Shown piece by piece: positions 25,839 to 33,066 of a stretch of 64,000 bases of DNA; the stretch's first letter is position 1, and every line of letters begins with the position of its first letter. Position numbers and translations under genes: made by a program. The notes beneath the pieces are model-generated. The model was given only the letters and a program-made list of their open reading frames with translations. It made no database searches and was not told where the DNA came from. This stretch comes from Homoserinimonas sedimenticola (GTDB taxonomy: Bacteria; Actinomycetota; Actinomycetes; Actinomycetales; Microbacteriaceae): positions 1,512,326 through 1,576,325 of the forward strand of contig NZ_JAPELL010000001.1 in assembly GCF_026094475.1 (NCBI RefSeq), written 5' to 3'.

Positions 25839-26537
25839 ATGAGCAGTGCCAGCACCGAGGAGCATCTCAGCCGAGCTGAGGTGCTCGCGGCGCGCCTTGA
25901 CCGGCCCATGGGGGCGCTCGGGGTGATCTTTCTCTTCGTCGTGCTGGGCCAGCTGCTCGCAAGCGACCCGACGCTCAGCACGGTGCTCACCGTCGTCGGT
26001 TGGGTCTTCTGGGCGATCTTCGTCGCGGAGTTCCTGCTGCGCGCCTACATCGCGCGATTCCAGGCGGCGTTCTGGCGCAAGAACTGGTGGCAGGTGGTGT
26101 TCCTGCTGGTGCCGTTCCTACGGTTCTTCCGGGCACTCCAGTCGCTGCGCCTGCTGCGGCTCGCGCGCGTGGCCCGTTTCGGCGGAGTCATCTCGGCGGG
26201 GGTGCGCGGCACACGTTCGGCGGGACGTCTGCTCACGAGCCGACTCGCATGGTTGGCCGCAGTGACGGTGGTCGTCATCCTCGTCTCCAGCCAGCTCCTC
26301 TACCTCTTCGGCGTCCACGACAGCTACGCCGACGCCCTCTACGAAGCGGCGATGGCGACCATCACGGGCACGGGCATCACCGCGGATGACACGACCGCTC
26401 GCCTCATCAAGGTGCCGCTCGCGGTCTACTCGGTCGTGGTGTTTGCGACGTTGGCCGGTTCCCTCGGCGCGTTCTTCCTCGACGAGGACCGGCGGAAGCA
26501 CAAGCGCTCGGAGGTTGCCGTGTTGCCCGACGCATGA
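25839..26537 (+). CDS. Voltage-sensor ion-transport domain protein with atypical pore filter
   Basis: 232 residues. Six hydrophobic segments laid out as a one-domain ion channel: S4-like RFFRALQSLRLLRLARVARFG (about 90-110) with Arg at every third position, then two helices flanking a re-entrant loop AAMATITGTGITADD. Potassium channels have T-V-G-Y-G-D at this point; here TGTGITAD lacks the aromatic residue, so ion selectivity is uncertain. No C-terminal RCK or cyclic-nucleotide domain. TAGGCC sits 6 bases before the ATG. Confidence 0.78.
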   Translation: MSSASTEEHLSRAEVLAARLDRPMGALGVIFLFVVLGQLLASDPTLSTVLTVVGWVFWAIFVAEFLLRAYIARFQAAFWRKNWWQVVFLLVPFLRFFRALQSLRLLRLARVARFGGVISAGVRGTRSAGRLLTSRLAWLAAVTVVVILVSSQLLYLFGVHDSYADALYEAAMATITGTGITADDTTARLIKVPLAVYSVVVFATLAGSLGAFFLDEDRRKHKRSEVAVLPDA

Positions 26538-26543
26538 TGGGCG

Positions 26544-26674
26544 TAGGCTCGCTCGTGACCACCGGTCGGCTGTGACCGGATGAGCCGCCCCGGCCTGGGG
26601 CGGCGGGTCGATCGGCGTCCTGCCTCTCCCCGCCGGGGGTGTCCCGGCGTGCCCGCAGACCTAGGAGCCGAAGC
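26544..26674 (+). ncRNA. Structured 5' leader of the F420-0 transporter operon (candidate cis-regulatory RNA)
   Basis: TAGGCT (26544-26549) is a -10 box, predicting a start at about 26555 and a leader of ~120 bases. It folds into three strong hairpins: CCGGTC/GACCGG (26562-26579), GCCGCCCC/GGGGCGGC (26584-26604, 5-base loop) and CGCCGGG/CCCGGCG (26631-26649, 5-base loop). AGGAG (26663-26667) follows, 7 bases before the GTG of the binding-protein gene. A six-codon leaderless reading frame (M-T-T-G-R-L, 26555-26575) lies inside hairpin 1. No cobalamin-riboswitch core sequence is present. Could be a riboswitch, attenuator or simply stable leader. Confidence 0.5.
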
Positions 26675-27661
26675 GTGCCCCACAGCCGTCACATCAGCGT
26701 TCCCCTGGCCGCGGCATCCGTCATCGCCCTCGCCCTCACCGGCTGCACCTCGCAGCCCGTCGAGAGCGACGAGACGGATGCCACAGCCCCCGCCACCTCG
26801 GAATACCCGCTCACGATCGACAACTGCGGCACCGAGATCACAATCGACGGGGCGCCCCAGCGCATCGTCACCATCAAGTCGTCGACGGCGGAACTGCTGC
26901 TCGCGCTCGGCCTCGAGGAGCGCCTCGTGGGGGTCGCCGCGCTCGACGGCCCGCTGCCCGACGAGACCGAGGTCGACATCGTGAGCGACTCGGTGCCCGG
27001 GCAGGAGGCGGTGCTCGCCCTCGAACCCGACTTCGTCTTCGCCGGCTGGGAGTCGAACTTCAGCGCCGAGGGCGCGGGGGAGCGCGAACGCCTCGAGGAG
27101 TTCGGCGTCGAGACCTATGTCGCCCCCGCCGCCTGCAAGCGCGACGGCTACATGCCCGACCCGCTCACCTTCGAGTTCGTCTTCGATAGCATCGCCGAAG
27201 CCGGGGTCATCTTCGACGCCCGCGAGGCGGCCGACGAGCTGCTCACCGAACAGCGGGCCGCCCTCGAGTCGGTCGAACCCGTCGACGACGCCCCCAGTGC
27301 CCTCTGGTACTCGAGCGGTCGCGCGACCCCCTATGTGGGCGCGGGCATCGGCTCGCCCCAGATGATCATGGATGCCGCGGGGCTCGACAACATCTTCGCC
27401 GACATCGACGACTCCTGGTCGTCGGTCAGCTGGGAGACCGTCGTCGCCGCGAACCCCGAGGTCATCGTGCTCGTCGACTCCGACTGGAACACGGCCGAGT
27501 CGAAGATCGCGGTGCTCGAGGAGAACCCGGCCACGGCCGCGCTCGACGCCGTGCGCGAGGGGCGCTACGTCGTGCTCCCCTTCGCCGCGACGGAGGCCGG
27601 CGTGCGCAACGTCGAGGCCGTGACATCCGCCGTCGAGCAGTTGCGGGAGTTGGGCTGGTAG
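26675..27661 (+). CDS. Proposed F420-0 ABC transporter, substrate-binding lipoprotein
   Basis: 328 residues. Lipoprotein signal peptide ending LALTGCTS (lipobox Cys near 22), then a class III binding protein of the BtuF/FepB fold with the usual long middle helix and PQRIVTIKSSTAELLLALG opening. The three-gene cassette and its company (cofE, fgd1 and F420 enzymes within 12 kb) match the actinobacterial set for which uptake of F420-0, the non-glutamylated coenzyme precursor, has been proposed (TIGR03868 type). A cobalamin or siderophore substrate is the alternative. GTG chosen for its AGGAG site and signal peptide. Confidence 0.82.
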   Translation: MPHSRHISVPLAAASVIALALTGCTSQPVESDETDATAPATSEYPLTIDNCGTEITIDGAPQRIVTIKSSTAELLLALGLEERLVGVAALDGPLPDETEVDIVSDSVPGQEAVLALEPDFVFAGWESNFSAEGAGERERLEEFGVETYVAPAACKRDGYMPDPLTFEFVFDSIAEAGVIFDAREAADELLTEQRAALESVEPVDDAPSALWYSSGRATPYVGAGIGSPQMIMDAAGLDNIFADIDDSWSSVSWETVVAANPEVIVLVDSDWNTAESKIAVLEENPATAALDAVREGRYVVLPFAATEAGVRNVEAVTSAVEQLRELGW

Positions 27662-27693: not shown

Positions 27694-28722
27694 ATGCGCG
27701 GCCCGCGGGGTCGCGCACGGTACGCGCTCGGCCTCGCTGCGACGGCGGCCGCGCTCGTCGTCGTCGCCGCCGTCGCGGTGACGATCGGGCCCGCCGACAT
27801 CAGGGTGAGTGATGTCGTCGCAAGTGTGGCTGGGCACCTCGGCCTCCCCGCAGCAGAGCTCTCGCCCCTCACCGACTCGATCGTGTGGCAGCTGCGCCTG
27901 CCGCGCGTGCTCACGGCGGCGGCGGTCGGGGCGGGCCTCGCGCTGAGCGGCGCCGTCATGCAGAGCGTCACCCGCAACCCTCTCGCCGACCCCTACCTGC
28001 TCGGCCTCTCCTCGGGCGCCTCCCTCGGGGCGGTCGCCGTGCTGCTGCTCGGGCTGGGCGTCGTGCTGCCGCTCGCCGCCTTCCTCGGGGCCCTTGCGGC
28101 GCTCGTCGCGTCACTCGCCATCGCGAGGGCGGGCGGCGCCATCACGCCCGGTCGCGCCGTGCTCGCAGGGCTCGCGATCGCCCAGCTGGCGGGGGCCGCG
28201 ACATCCTTCGTGATCTTCTGGTCGGCCAAGGGCGACTCCTACCGCGAGATCCTCAACTGGCTACTCGGCTCCCTCGCGGGCAGCGACTGGTCGACCGCCG
28301 CGATCTCGGCGAGTGCCCTCGCGGTCGTCGGCACCGCCATCCTGCTCGCCGCACCCCGCCTCGACGCCTTCACCTTCGGCGATACGGCCGCCGCCTCGCT
28401 CGGCATCGACGTCTCCGCGACCCGCTGGACCCTGCTCACGGGCGTCGCGCTCCTGACGGGGGCGATGGTCGCCGTGAGCGGGGCGATCGGCTTCGTCGGC
28501 CTCGTGCTGCCCCACGTCGTGCGCAGCATCAGCGGGCCGACCCATCGACGGATGCTTCCCCTCGCCGCCCTCGCGGGTGCCCTCTTCCTCGTGGTCGCCG
28601 ATACCCTCGCCCGCACAGTTTTCGACCCGCGCGAGCTGCCCGTCGGCATCATCACCGCCGTCATCGGGGTGCCCGTCTTCGTCGCGCTCTTCACCCGGCG
28701 TAGGGGGGCGTCGTGGGGGTAG
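27694..28722 (+). CDS. Proposed F420-0 ABC transporter, permease (FecCD/BtuC family)
   Basis: 342 residues with about nine or ten helices. Family landmarks: RLPRVLTAAAVGAGLALSGAV near 68-88, NPLADPYLLGLSSGASLGA (about 93-112), the coupling-helix region GDTAAASLGIDVSATRW and the GFVGLVLPHVVRSISGP block (about 268-284) that contacts the ATPase. TIGR03869-type in context. The stop lies 10 bases inside the next gene. Works with the lipoprotein upstream and ATPase downstream. Confidence 0.83.
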   Translation: MRGPRGRARYALGLAATAAALVVVAAVAVTIGPADIRVSDVVASVAGHLGLPAAELSPLTDSIVWQLRLPRVLTAAAVGAGLALSGAVMQSVTRNPLADPYLLGLSSGASLGAVAVLLLGLGVVLPLAAFLGALAALVASLAIARAGGAITPGRAVLAGLAIAQLAGAATSFVIFWSAKGDSYREILNWLLGSLAGSDWSTAAISASALAVVGTAILLAAPRLDAFTFGDTAAASLGIDVSATRWTLLTGVALLTGAMVAVSGAIGFVGLVLPHVVRSISGPTHRRMLPLAALAGALFLVVADTLARTVFDPRELPVGIITAVIGVPVFVALFTRRRGASWG

Positions 28723-29477
28723 AGATCGCAGGTGTCTCGCTGTCGATCGGCGGCGCCCCGATCCTGCGGGAGGTGACGGCCGCTGCACCTACCGGGCAGG
28801 TTACAGGCCTGTTGGGCCCCAATGGGGCCGGCAAGTCGAGCCTGCTCCGGCTCGTCGGCGGCATCGCGGAACCCGATTCGGGGCGCATCCTGCTCGACGG
28901 TGTCGACCTCGCGGGGCTCCCGCGTCGCGAGCGCGCTCGACGCATCGCCCTGCTGGAGCAGAACGCCGCACCCTCCGTCGACCTCACAGTGCGGGAGGTC
29001 GTGCTGCTGGGCCGCATCCCCCACCGTCGGGGGCTGCTCGGGTCCTTCAGCGGCGAGGGCGACCATGAGGCTGCGGATGCCGCCCTGCATGCGGCGGGCG
29101 CCCTCGAGCTTGCGGACCGTCGCTGGCACAGCCTCAGTGGCGGCCAGCAGCAGCGCGTGCAGGTCGCCCGGGCGCTCGCCCAGCGACCCGAGGTGCTCCT
29201 GCTCGACGAGCCCACCAACCACCTGGACGTGCACGCCCAGCTCTCGCTGCTGCGCCGGGTGCGGGGCCTCGGGGTCACCTCGATCATGGCGCTCCACGAT
29301 CTCTCCCTCGCGGCAGCCCACTGCGATCACATCCTCCTGCTGGCCGACGGATGCCTCGTCGCCTCCGGCCCGCCCGCCGAGGTACTCCGTCCCGACACGA
29401 TCGGCGCCGTGTACCGCGTGGACTGTGACGTGCTCGCACACCCGCGCACGGGGCATCCGGTCATCGTCTTCTCCTAG
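28713..29477 (+). CDS. Proposed F420-0 ABC transporter, ATP-binding protein
   Basis: 254 residues. Walker A GPNGAGKSS (near 35-43), signature SLSGGQQQRVQVARAL (near 140), Walker B EVLLLDEPTNHLD and the switch His in MALHDLSL. FepC/BtuD subfamily. The GTG start overlaps the permease end by 10 bases. The three genes form a closed operon that ends about 60 bp before a DUF421 gene with its own promoter-like sequence. Confidence 0.9.
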   Translation: MGVEIAGVSLSIGGAPILREVTAAAPTGQVTGLLGPNGAGKSSLLRLVGGIAEPDSGRILLDGVDLAGLPRRERARRIALLEQNAAPSVDLTVREVVLLGRIPHRRGLLGSFSGEGDHEAADAALHAAGALELADRRWHSLSGGQQQRVQVARALAQRPEVLLLDEPTNHLDVHAQLSLLRRVRGLGVTSIMALHDLSLAAAHCDHILLLADGCLVASGPPAEVLRPDTIGAVYRVDCDVLAHPRTGHPVIVFS

Positions 29478-30545: not shown

Positions 30546-30590
30546 GCATCCACACCCCGCGGCATCCACACCCCGCGGCATCCACACCCC
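30546..30590. repeat. Tandem 16-bp repeat, three copies
   Basis: GCATCCACACCCCGCG repeated at 30546, 30562 and 30578 (the last incomplete), directly before palindromic element copy 2. Each unit starts with the abundant hexamer GCATCC. Confidence 0.8.
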
Positions 30591-30596
30591 ATCAGC

Positions 30597-30654
30597 GCGG
30601 TGTTTTCTGCTCAGCGCGGGCGCAGAAACCGGCGCGCTGAGCAGAAAACACCGC
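30597..30654 (+). repeat. Palindromic repeat element, copy 2 of 5
   Basis: The most perfect copy: 22-base arms 30597-30618 and 30633-30654 are fully complementary around a 14-base loop. The left arm starts GCGGTGTTTTCTGCTC; the element is followed by ACTGTTG, as in copies 3 and 5. It lies 23 bp beyond the 3' end of the ddn-like gene, and copy 3 lies beyond its 5' end. Confidence 0.88.
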
Positions 30655-30677
30655 ACTGTTGACGCGGAGTCGACCGA

Positions 30678-31118: not shown

Positions 31119-31183
31119 GCAGTCGATAACAGCACGCGCGCCAGAGAATTCCCGGCAACACCTGTCCTGCCACCCGTCAGTTC

Positions 31184-31257
31184 CCAACAACGCGGCGTTT
31201 TCTGCTCAGCGCTACACCACAGAACACCGCGATGAGCAGAAAACACCGCACTGTTGG
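31184..31257 (+). repeat. Palindromic repeat element, copy 3 of 5
   Basis: 25-base arms (31184-31208 and 31233-31257) match at 22 positions, bounded by CCAACA/TGTTGG. The right half carries TGAGCAGAAAACACCGC and ACTGTTG as in copies 2 and 5. It lies between the 3' end of cofE and the 5' side of the ddn-like gene. Confidence 0.85.
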
Positions 31258-31270
31258 TGCCTGCGGCGGC

Positions 31271-32068
31271 TCACTCGTGGAGCGAGCCCGCTTGCGACGC
31301 AGCGCGTCCCGCCGCGAACCCCTCTTCATACCCCGCGGCCCGTGCTTCGGCTGTCCCGAGGCTGAACATGTCCGCCTCCCCCAGCCGCTGCAGCGCTCGC
31401 GCGCCCGGCGCGTCGAGCCCCGCGACATACCGCCCCAGCCCCCGCACGACCGCCACGGGCATCCCGCTCGTCTTGCCCTTCACTAGATCGGATGCCGCGG
31501 CGACCTCGTCCGCGATCGCGGCGGCGGTCACGGTCAGCGAGCGCCCCGCCGCATCCGTCGTCCCGCGCAGGTCCTCGAGCACGGTGACTCCCGCCGCGCC
31601 GATCGCGATGTCGGTCTGCCCCTGGCGCCACGGGCGGCCCGCCGTGTCGGTGATGACGACCCCGAGGCGCACCCCGGTCGCACGGCGGAGAGCCTCGCAG
31701 AGGGCGAGGGCCGAAGCATCCGGATCCTCAGGCAGCAGCAGCACGGTCCCCTCGTCGGTGTTGCTCGCGTCGACCCCGGCCGCCGCCATCACAAGCCCCT
31801 GCCGATTCTCGACGATGCGAGTCACGCCGCCCGGATGCTCACGCGAGGCGACCACGCGCACGGTCTCGTCCGTGATCGCCTGCTCGCGGTCGGCTGCGGC
31901 ACGAATCCGACCCTCGGCTTTCGAGACGATCTTGCTCGTGACCGAGAGGATGTCACCCTCCTCAAGCTCGACGCCCGCCTCGAGAATGAGCGCCGCAAGG
32001 TTCTCGCCCGGTCGCACCTCACCGATCCCCGACACCCCGAACACCGTCAATCCCGGCACGAGCCCCAT
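31271..32068 (-). CDS. cofE: Coenzyme F420-0:L-glutamate ligase
   Basis: 265 residues, the length of stand-alone archaeal-type CofE and without the nitroreductase-like C-terminal half of mycobacterial FbiB. GTP-dependent addition of gamma-linked glutamates to F420-0. Landmarks: [35 protein letters not shown], and the metal-binding [25 protein letters not shown] block, ending [10 protein letters not shown]. The start overlaps the LLM gene stop (ATGA). With the proposed F420-0 importer nearby and no other cof gene in view, it fits F420 salvage. Confidence 0.93.
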
Positions 32069-33066
32069 CAGGCCACCAGCCCCGGCAGCACATCTCGGCC
32101 AAAGGTTTCCAGAAACTCACGCTGGTTGCGCCCAACATTGTGCAGGTGGATGCGCGTGAAACCGAGATCGAGGTGGCGCTGGATGTGCGCGCGATGCGCA
32201 TCGAGATCCGAGCTGACGAGCATCCGCCCCTCGAAGTGTTCGGGGCGCACCAGGCGGGTCAGCTGCTCGAACTCGTACGGCGAACGGATGTCCGCATGCG
32301 AGAACCGCAGCCCCGCCTGCGGCCACTCCCGCAGCGCGTTGGCCATCGCCTGCTCATCGGTCTCGGCCCAGCTCACGTGCAGGCGCAGCACACGGGGGGC
32401 GGATGCCGCGTCCCGCCCGACCGCGCGAGCGCCCTCCTCGAAGCGGCGCAACAGCACCTCGAGTTTCTCGAGCGGCGCGTTCGTCGTGATGAGCCCGTCG
32501 GCAACGCGCCCCGCCCGCTTGGCCGTGACGGGACCCGAGGTCGCGACGAGCACCTGCGGGGGCACCTCCGGCATGGTCCAGAGCCGTGACGACTCCAGCC
32601 GGAAGTGGGTGCCCGAATGCTTCGTGTCACGACCCGAGGCCGATGCCGTGAACAGCTTCTGGATCACCTCGATCGCCTCGAACATGCGGTCGATGCGCTC
32701 GGGCGCCTCCGGCCAGTAACGCCCGACGACATGCTCGTTGAGGGCATCACCCGAACCGACGCCGAGCCAATGCCGGCCCGGATACATGGCGGCGAGGGTC
32801 GCAGATGCCTGGGCGACCACCGCAGGATGCATGCGAAACGTCGGCGCCGTCACCGGACCGAAGTCACCCGTCGTGCGCTCCCCGATCGCCGTCAGAACGC
32901 TCCACACGAAGGAGGACTCCCCCTGCGCGGGCACCCACGGCTGGAAGTGGTCCGCCGCGACCACCCCCGAGAAACCGTGAGACTCGGCGAGCGCCGCCAA
33001 CTCGACGGCCTCGCCGGGGGCGAACTGCTCAAGCATGGCGGCATAGCCGATCAGGGCACGGGTCAT
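32068..33066 (-). CDS. LLM-class F420-dependent oxidoreductase, G6PDH-like family
   Basis: 332 residues. Bacterial luciferase-like TIM barrel: [23 protein letters not shown] near the N-terminus and [20 protein letters not shown] near 95 are the Fgd-like family blocks (TIGR03557 type). It lacks the exact Fgd1 sugar-phosphate residues, so a different hydride donor or acceptor is likely. It overlaps cofE by three bases, evidence that it uses F420. CAGGAT lies 6 bases before the ATG. Confidence 0.87.

Follow-up and report, generated by a model that had tools for sequence, protein, structure and literature searches.

The putative F420-0 transporter operon and its leader

The window analyzed in this study is a stretch of 64,000 nucleotides from contig NZ_JAPELL010000001.1 of Homoserinimonas sedimenticola. 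It carries an ABC transporter operon for which the best NCBIfam families of all three subunits are 'putative F420-0 ABC transporter' models, and genes linked to F420 form its context 2-4 kb downstream:

26675..27661, + strand: lipoprotein substrate-binding protein (TIGR03868) with a GTG start, 438.4 bits against a cut-off of 392.4
27694..28722, + strand: permease (TIGR03869), 476.1 bits against a cut-off of 437.35
28713..29477, + strand: ATPase, best family TIGR03873, 328 bits, below the cut-off of 372.4
31271..32068, - strand: cofE, F420-0:L-glutamate ligase (downstream context)
32068..33066, - strand: F420-dependent LLM oxidoreductase of the TIGR03557 family (downstream context)

The binding protein has a relative in structure 4mlz. 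A near-perfect palindrome of 74 nt is present in two copies that are 81% alike (30588-30661 and 31183-31256) and flank a ddn-like gene. The arms of the first copy are GTGTTTTCTGCTCAGCGC and GCGCTGAGCAGAAAACAC, and the two copies have the appearance of a repeat element or of a paired terminator.

Upstream of the GTG start the following leader features were assigned, where A2 denotes the alignment of 64 leaders described below:

26544..26549, + strand: -10-like box TAGGCT, which would place the RNA 5' end at or just before P1
26556..26610, + strand: three-way-junction RNA core of ~55 nt, a putative aptamer (covariance-model match 26557-26610, fold z -3.34, covariation)
26556..26560, + strand: P1 5' strand (U)GACC (fold; GC/AU/CG, two-sided changes at 2 of 3 modelled pairs in A2)
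26562..26579, + strand: P2 hairpin CCGGUC-GGCUGU-GACCGG, 6 bp (two-sided changes in 6 of 6 pairs in A2)
26584..26604, + strand: P3 hairpin GCCGCCCC-GGCCU-GGGGCGGC, 8 bp (two-sided changes in 4 of 7 pairs in A2)
26606..26610, + strand: P1 3' strand GGUC(G) (fold)
26614..26624, + strand: weak P4 hairpin GGC-GUCCU-GCC, directly 3' of P1 (fold)
26631..26649, + strand: a further hairpin of 7 bp, third in the sequence-only reading (counterpart recognized by eye in L003 and L008, both close relatives)
26663..26667, + strand: ribosome-binding site AGGAG (sequence)

An earlier sequence-only reading of this leader had proposed a new riboswitch for F420-0. The -10 box, P2, P3, the third hairpin, the AGGAG motif and the GTG start at 26675 on which it was built are all present. 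While its three hairpins do exist, it had overlooked P1, which closes the first two into a three-way junction, and the third hairpin, counted there as part of the structured element, lies outside the conserved core. A small frame (MTTGRL) noted under the first hairpin exists as well, with a GTG start, at 26555-26575. Since a start codon is found at this position in only 6 of the 64 aligned leaders (window included), it was rejected as a functional frame and is probably incidental, outside the conserved core.

The 55-nt core folds better than shuffled sequences (z -3.34; 1 of 200 shuffles as good), whereas the whole leader of 147 nt (z -0.54) and the 45 nt 3' of the core (z -0.49; 58 of 200) are no better folded than their shuffles. 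The fold signal is therefore restricted to the junction. The outermost pair of P1 forms in 43 of the 64 A2 leaders, and relatives carry P3 as ...CCC-GGAUUU/GGGAUU-GGG.... Hairpins at the position of P4 recur in relatives with a slight excess overall over mononucleotide shuffles; as only 18 of 93 fall into the best tenth of these, P4 is not claimed. A TANNNT box ends 3-10 nt 5' of the element in 59 of the 64 A2 leaders, and the RNA therefore probably starts at P1.

Conservation and covariation of the junction

Of 114 loci with a gene related to that of the binding protein, the best 80 were gathered and their leaders compared. By eye, the same element was found upstream of many of these 80 loci. 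Ten leaders recognized by eye served as seeds for a sequence profile, and the stretches obtained by growing this profile were aligned with MAFFT without regard to structure (A1, 30 leaders). In A1, 90.0% of cells are paired and two-sided changes occur in 7 of 16 pairs, compared with 2.0 in shuffles (0 of 500 reached this value). A covariance model built from A1 (R1) gave 80 matches at E<=1 over 100 sources, 11 of which are false by position. From these searches 64 chosen leaders were fitted to the structure, so that the resulting alignment (A2) leans towards it, which A1 does not. A2 has 93.8% of cells paired, two-sided changes in 12 of 16 pairs and 83 double-change cells, against a shuffle mean of 19.2 (0 of 500) and 3-33 cells in slid controls.

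Three further clades were aligned separately with MAFFT, using stretches that were mostly chosen by the promoter-anchored structure search described below. Double-change cells exceed their shuffles in the Cellulomonadaceae (16 leaders, 92.0% paired; 8 against 1.9), in the Jiangellaceae (18 leaders, 96.2% paired; 7 against 1.8) and in the Promicromonospora/Cellulosimicrobium/Myceligenerans-type set with its relatives (14 leaders, 95.0% paired; 18 against 4.7), each with 0 of 500 shuffles as high; as in all covariation shuffles used here, kinship of the leaders is ignored. Further pair types are not above shuffles in the Jiangellaceae and Promicromonospora-type sets (340 and 457 of 500), and the number of pairs with two-sided changes in the Jiangellaceae was reached by 56 of 500 shuffles. 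A mixed-clade MAFFT alignment was misaligned, with two wrong stretches, and was set aside.

Among relatives the stems are better kept than the loops, which are only roughly alike across clades (by eye, an NGNNNU-like pattern), and across clades no extended invariant core emerged. P2 and P3 carry identical hexaloops in two cases, GUGCUU twice in L113 (1501-1554) and CGAUCU twice in the L174 leader. Loop-loop kissing was considered and dropped after a check by eye; canonical loop-loop pairing is inconsistent.

Lack of covariation among relatives had been named beforehand as a finding that would refute the proposal; instead, several clades show covariation, and the signal is strong. We regard it as almost certain that the leader contains a conserved structured RNA.

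Promoter-anchored search for the junction

A search for three-way junctions anywhere in the leaders was too permissive in GC-rich DNA (mean score 42.3 for shuffles, 48.2 for real leaders) and was abandoned. Another search was anchored at the promoter. After L183 had been dropped as too short, repeats were merged to 135 leaders and two with short upstream DNA were removed, leaving 133 distinct leaders. A junction begins 3-11 nt 3' of a TANNNT box in 105 of them, and when the 85 nt downstream were shuffled 60 times, no more than 5% of the shuffles reached the real score in 98 of these 105; the real box being the best of several choices, this comparison somewhat favours real sequences over shuffles. 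The remaining 28 include leaders such as L024, in which the element stands behind a non-standard box, and others in which it was not recognized before the transporter genes (L055, L057, L083 and L084). The latter four belong to two Cryobacterium and two Microbacterium species and are possible natural controls.

Distribution of the element and its link to the transporter

Relatives of the element precede the TIGR03868 operon in Microbacteriaceae, Cellulomonadaceae, Promicromonospora-type genera and Jiangellaceae. In the genome of the window R1 detects one match with E 1.3e-12, followed by the next at E 0.41; seven weak matches in the same genome (L089-L095) lie away from any such operon. At this point it can be weighed whether the GC hairpins are grouped by chance, as may happen in a GC-rich genome. 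Such an origin would agree with a whole leader no better folded than its shuffles and with the ease of finding unanchored junctions in shuffled GC-rich DNA, but it is contradicted by covariation in several sets of relatives and by model matches far above background, and its probability is negligible.

A scan of the order with R1 (396 genomes) yielded 51 matches in 50 genomes at E<=0.01. All 16 matches with E<1e-8 lie before the gene of the transporter's binding protein. For 30 of the 51 matches loci were retrieved, 21 at the operon and 9 elsewhere, the latter all with E>=1e-5; among the 21 matches without loci, coordinates place those of G134 and G213 at 235 nt and 674 nt before a TIGR03868 match. 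Within the Microbacteriaceae (family f1, 34 genomes, including Agromyces, as L108 is the same locus as L025), the motif was detected at E<1e-9 in 15 of 17 genomes with TIGR03868 and in none of the 17 without (Fisher 1.5e-7, relatedness ignored). One genome without TIGR03868 (G331) has a match with E 0.006, and one of the two TIGR03868 genomes that were missed (G101) has by eye a diverged junction like that of L059.

Outside this family, 98 genomes of the order carry TIGR03868 relatives at E<=1e-60 (17 of the 115 genomes with such relatives are below the family cut-off). Diverged versions of the element are mostly missed by R1, which finds it in 7 of the 98, 189-284 nt before the TIGR03868 match; the case for a wider distribution is therefore built on the promoter-anchored search and on the alignments of single clades, which are weaker tests. 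A scan of the class with R2 (394 genomes) gave matches at E<=0.01 in 65 genomes. The strong ones are the Microbacteriaceae already known and the best match outside these has E 1e-6, while none of 21 new loci (L125-L145) encodes a relative of the operon proteins or of the cofE, LLM or ddn products. R2 misses the Jiangellaceae form, so that its negatives elsewhere do not show absence. In the Jiangellaceae (family f38, 22 genomes; L182 is the same locus as L076), R3, a model built from the family's own leaders, has one strong match in 19 of 22 genomes, and the same 19 carry TIGR03868; this search was not blind, as 18 of the 19 leaders built the model and the sole new one (G599) is at a contig end. 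The binding-protein gene is on the retrieved locus in 18 of the 19, and R3 gave four weak extra matches (E 0.004-0.009).

One general mark of riboswitches, an RNA structure conserved in the 5' leader of a gene with a related metabolic role, is thus found at this operon. Strong covariation in several clades together with the tie to one transporter family makes a new cis-regulatory RNA very likely, with a riboswitch as the leading explanation, and we are confident that the leader acts as a cis-regulator of the transporter.

Two explanations without a small-molecule ligand bear on these data. The junction might be a 5' structural cap that stabilizes the messenger or fixes a constant level of translation without sensing. 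Such a role would suit an element that probably lies at the very 5' end and whose stems are kept better than its loops, but a generic stabilizer would be expected before other genes as well, and the 16 strong matches of the order scan are all at this operon, with the next own-genome match only at E 0.41; we judge a cap quite unlikely. Alternatively, an RNA-binding protein instead of a small molecule might recognize the twin-hairpin junction and control translation or stability of the transporter mRNA. Two similar hairpins next to each other, whose loops are identical in L174 and L113, could form a double site, and the restriction of strong matches to one operon type is consistent with this as well. 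Protein-binding hairpin sites would, however, seldom need a closed three-way junction throughout several families, and a protein-bound leader appears unlikely, though less so than a cap.

Gene content of the F420 pathway and the transported compound

In family f1, CofE is encoded in 17 of 17 genomes with the transporter and in 9 of 17 others, and CofD in 15 of 17 and 9 of 17, with no match in the genome of the window or in G284. The CofH part of FO synthase was detected in 1 of 17 transporter genomes and in 8 of 17 others. These nine CofH matches all fall short of the CofH cut-off, and the open frames that contain them have 813-935 aa, the size expected of fused FbiC. Among the 26 genomes of this family with CofE, transporter and FO synthase replace each other (Fisher p 5e-5), with both present in G357 and neither in G253. 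Eight of the nine CofE genomes without transporter have the CofH part, and since all eight are from a single genus (g3), they stand for fewer events than this count suggests. Four genes besides those of the operon were sought in the 69 loci whose flanks were complete or almost so: cofD lies within ~4 kb in 47, cofE in 7, LLM in 11 and ddn in 1. In L017 and L020 cofD is directly 3' of the ATPase gene, pointing to FO rather than F420-0 as the substrate in these two.

Because CofE always and FO synthase rarely accompanies the transporter and cofD is its frequent neighbor, the operon probably imports a deazaflavin. Genomes with CofD and CofE and without FO synthase would need FO, whereas the genome of the window, where CofE alone was found, would need F420-0. 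This genome encodes CofE and F420-dependent enzymes, no CofD or FO synthase match was found in it, and it is an apparent F420-0 auxotroph. The import of F420-0 assumed at the outset thus agrees with the gene content of this genome, while FO is suggested for most carriers among the Microbacteriaceae. Judged from the gene content of this one family, most of its carriers probably import FO and the genome of the window F420-0, or else both compounds are taken up.

The label of the transporter is itself an annotation by inference, and the leader could be a riboswitch for another ligand, such as a cobalamin-like compound, a flavin or an iron chelate. Permease and ATPase also resemble BtuC/Fec families, and TIGR03868 is a 'hypothetical equivalog' unnamed in the open-licence papers searched. 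Replacement of FO synthase by the transporter among CofE genomes of one family and the frequent cofD neighborhood argue against this, as does the lack of any match to the cobalamin or FMN models of Rfam. We consider another ligand improbable, to about the same degree as a structural cap.

Comparison with known riboswitches

With Rfam 15, neither the window nor the loci of 20 relatives gave a credible match at gathering or permissive thresholds; near the leader, E<=10 returned three chance microRNA matches only. The covariance models for the cobalamin, FMN and purine riboswitches were among those without match. The absence of a cobalamin riboswitch, already noted in the sequence-only reading, was borne out, as the whole window has no Rfam match at gathering scores.

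Purine riboswitches are three-way junctions with two loop-capped arms. A P1 closing two hairpins and a core of ~55-65 nt are common to both, but the loops differ, and the consistent canonical loop-loop pairing is not seen here (by eye). The FMN riboswitch (RFN element) is a six-way junction of >100 nt; it would be alike in sensing a flavin-like cofactor and controlling its supply, if the present proposal holds. Cobalamin riboswitches occur before BtuFCD-type transporters and are thereby alike in forming the leader of a BtuF/C/D-like transporter, whereas here the association is with the F420 pathway. The NAD+-II riboswitch differs from this element in fold and in the organisms that carry it. 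In its logic it is nevertheless the nearest analogue, with a ligand other than the one proposed here: this RNA (the pnuC motif) is tied almost only to a cofactor-precursor transporter gene (PMC7749635), and an RNA linked to such a transporter is what both share.

Within the accessible text of the open-licence literature searched, neither a riboswitch or RNA sensor for F420 or a deazaflavin nor an RNA associated with TIGR03868 was found. The portion available of a review on F420 leaves riboswitches unmentioned, and its single passage on an ABC transporter deals with possible export in P. rhizoxinica (PMC8498797). In the sections available of a further article, riboswitch mentions concern FMN or riboswitches generally (PMC12855090).

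Expression platform and proposed mechanism

To control the operon, the junction would have to act on transcription or translation. No terminator-like site was found at 26300-26900, and translational control is therefore the simplest idea. The best complement of the Shine-Dalgarno (SD) sequence beats 95% of shuffles (<=0.05) in just 8 of 96 leaders. Pairing between P3 loop and SD is feasible in Agromyces and a small number of others, where the loop, CCGGGAU, can form pairs with (A/G)UCCCGG at the SD. It is above random re-pairing for 37 leaders (0 of 500), but only weakly so for the 14 outside the Agromyces-type group (26 of 500). The Jiangellaceae have a GUCUCC 3' of the next hairpin that could pair with their GGAGAC SD. 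Neither scheme is common to all clades, the statistics are weak, and no consistent expression platform was found.

The reading that we favor, with moderate confidence, is a riboswitch-type translational OFF switch that would sense FO, F420-0 or F420. The three-way junction at the 5' terminus would form once the messenger is made, and FO, F420-0 or F420 may bind to the junction and its twin loops and thereby steady P1. With enough cofactor, expression of the transporter would be lowered, the likeliest route being restricted access to the ribosome site. Of the F420-0 riboswitch proposed from the sequence, a conserved covarying RNA tied to one transporter family has been substantiated, while ligand binding and F420-0 as the specific compound stay presumptive. 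That the leader is a riboswitch for a deazaflavin has, in our estimation, about an even chance. More tentatively, at slightly under even, it may represent the first riboswitch class for the deazaflavin pathway of F420. Its members would be three-way junctions of ~55 nt that carry twin hexaloops, lie at the 5' end of the mRNA and serve several families of Actinomycetes.

If true, such an RNA would provide a genetic read-out of deazaflavin status and support an uptake function for a family of transporters named by inference only. The many carriers that lack FO synthase, as seen in Microbacteriaceae, would then scavenge FO or F420-0 from their neighbors, suggesting that many Actinomycetes live on the FO or F420-0 of others and that F420 is a shared vitamin.
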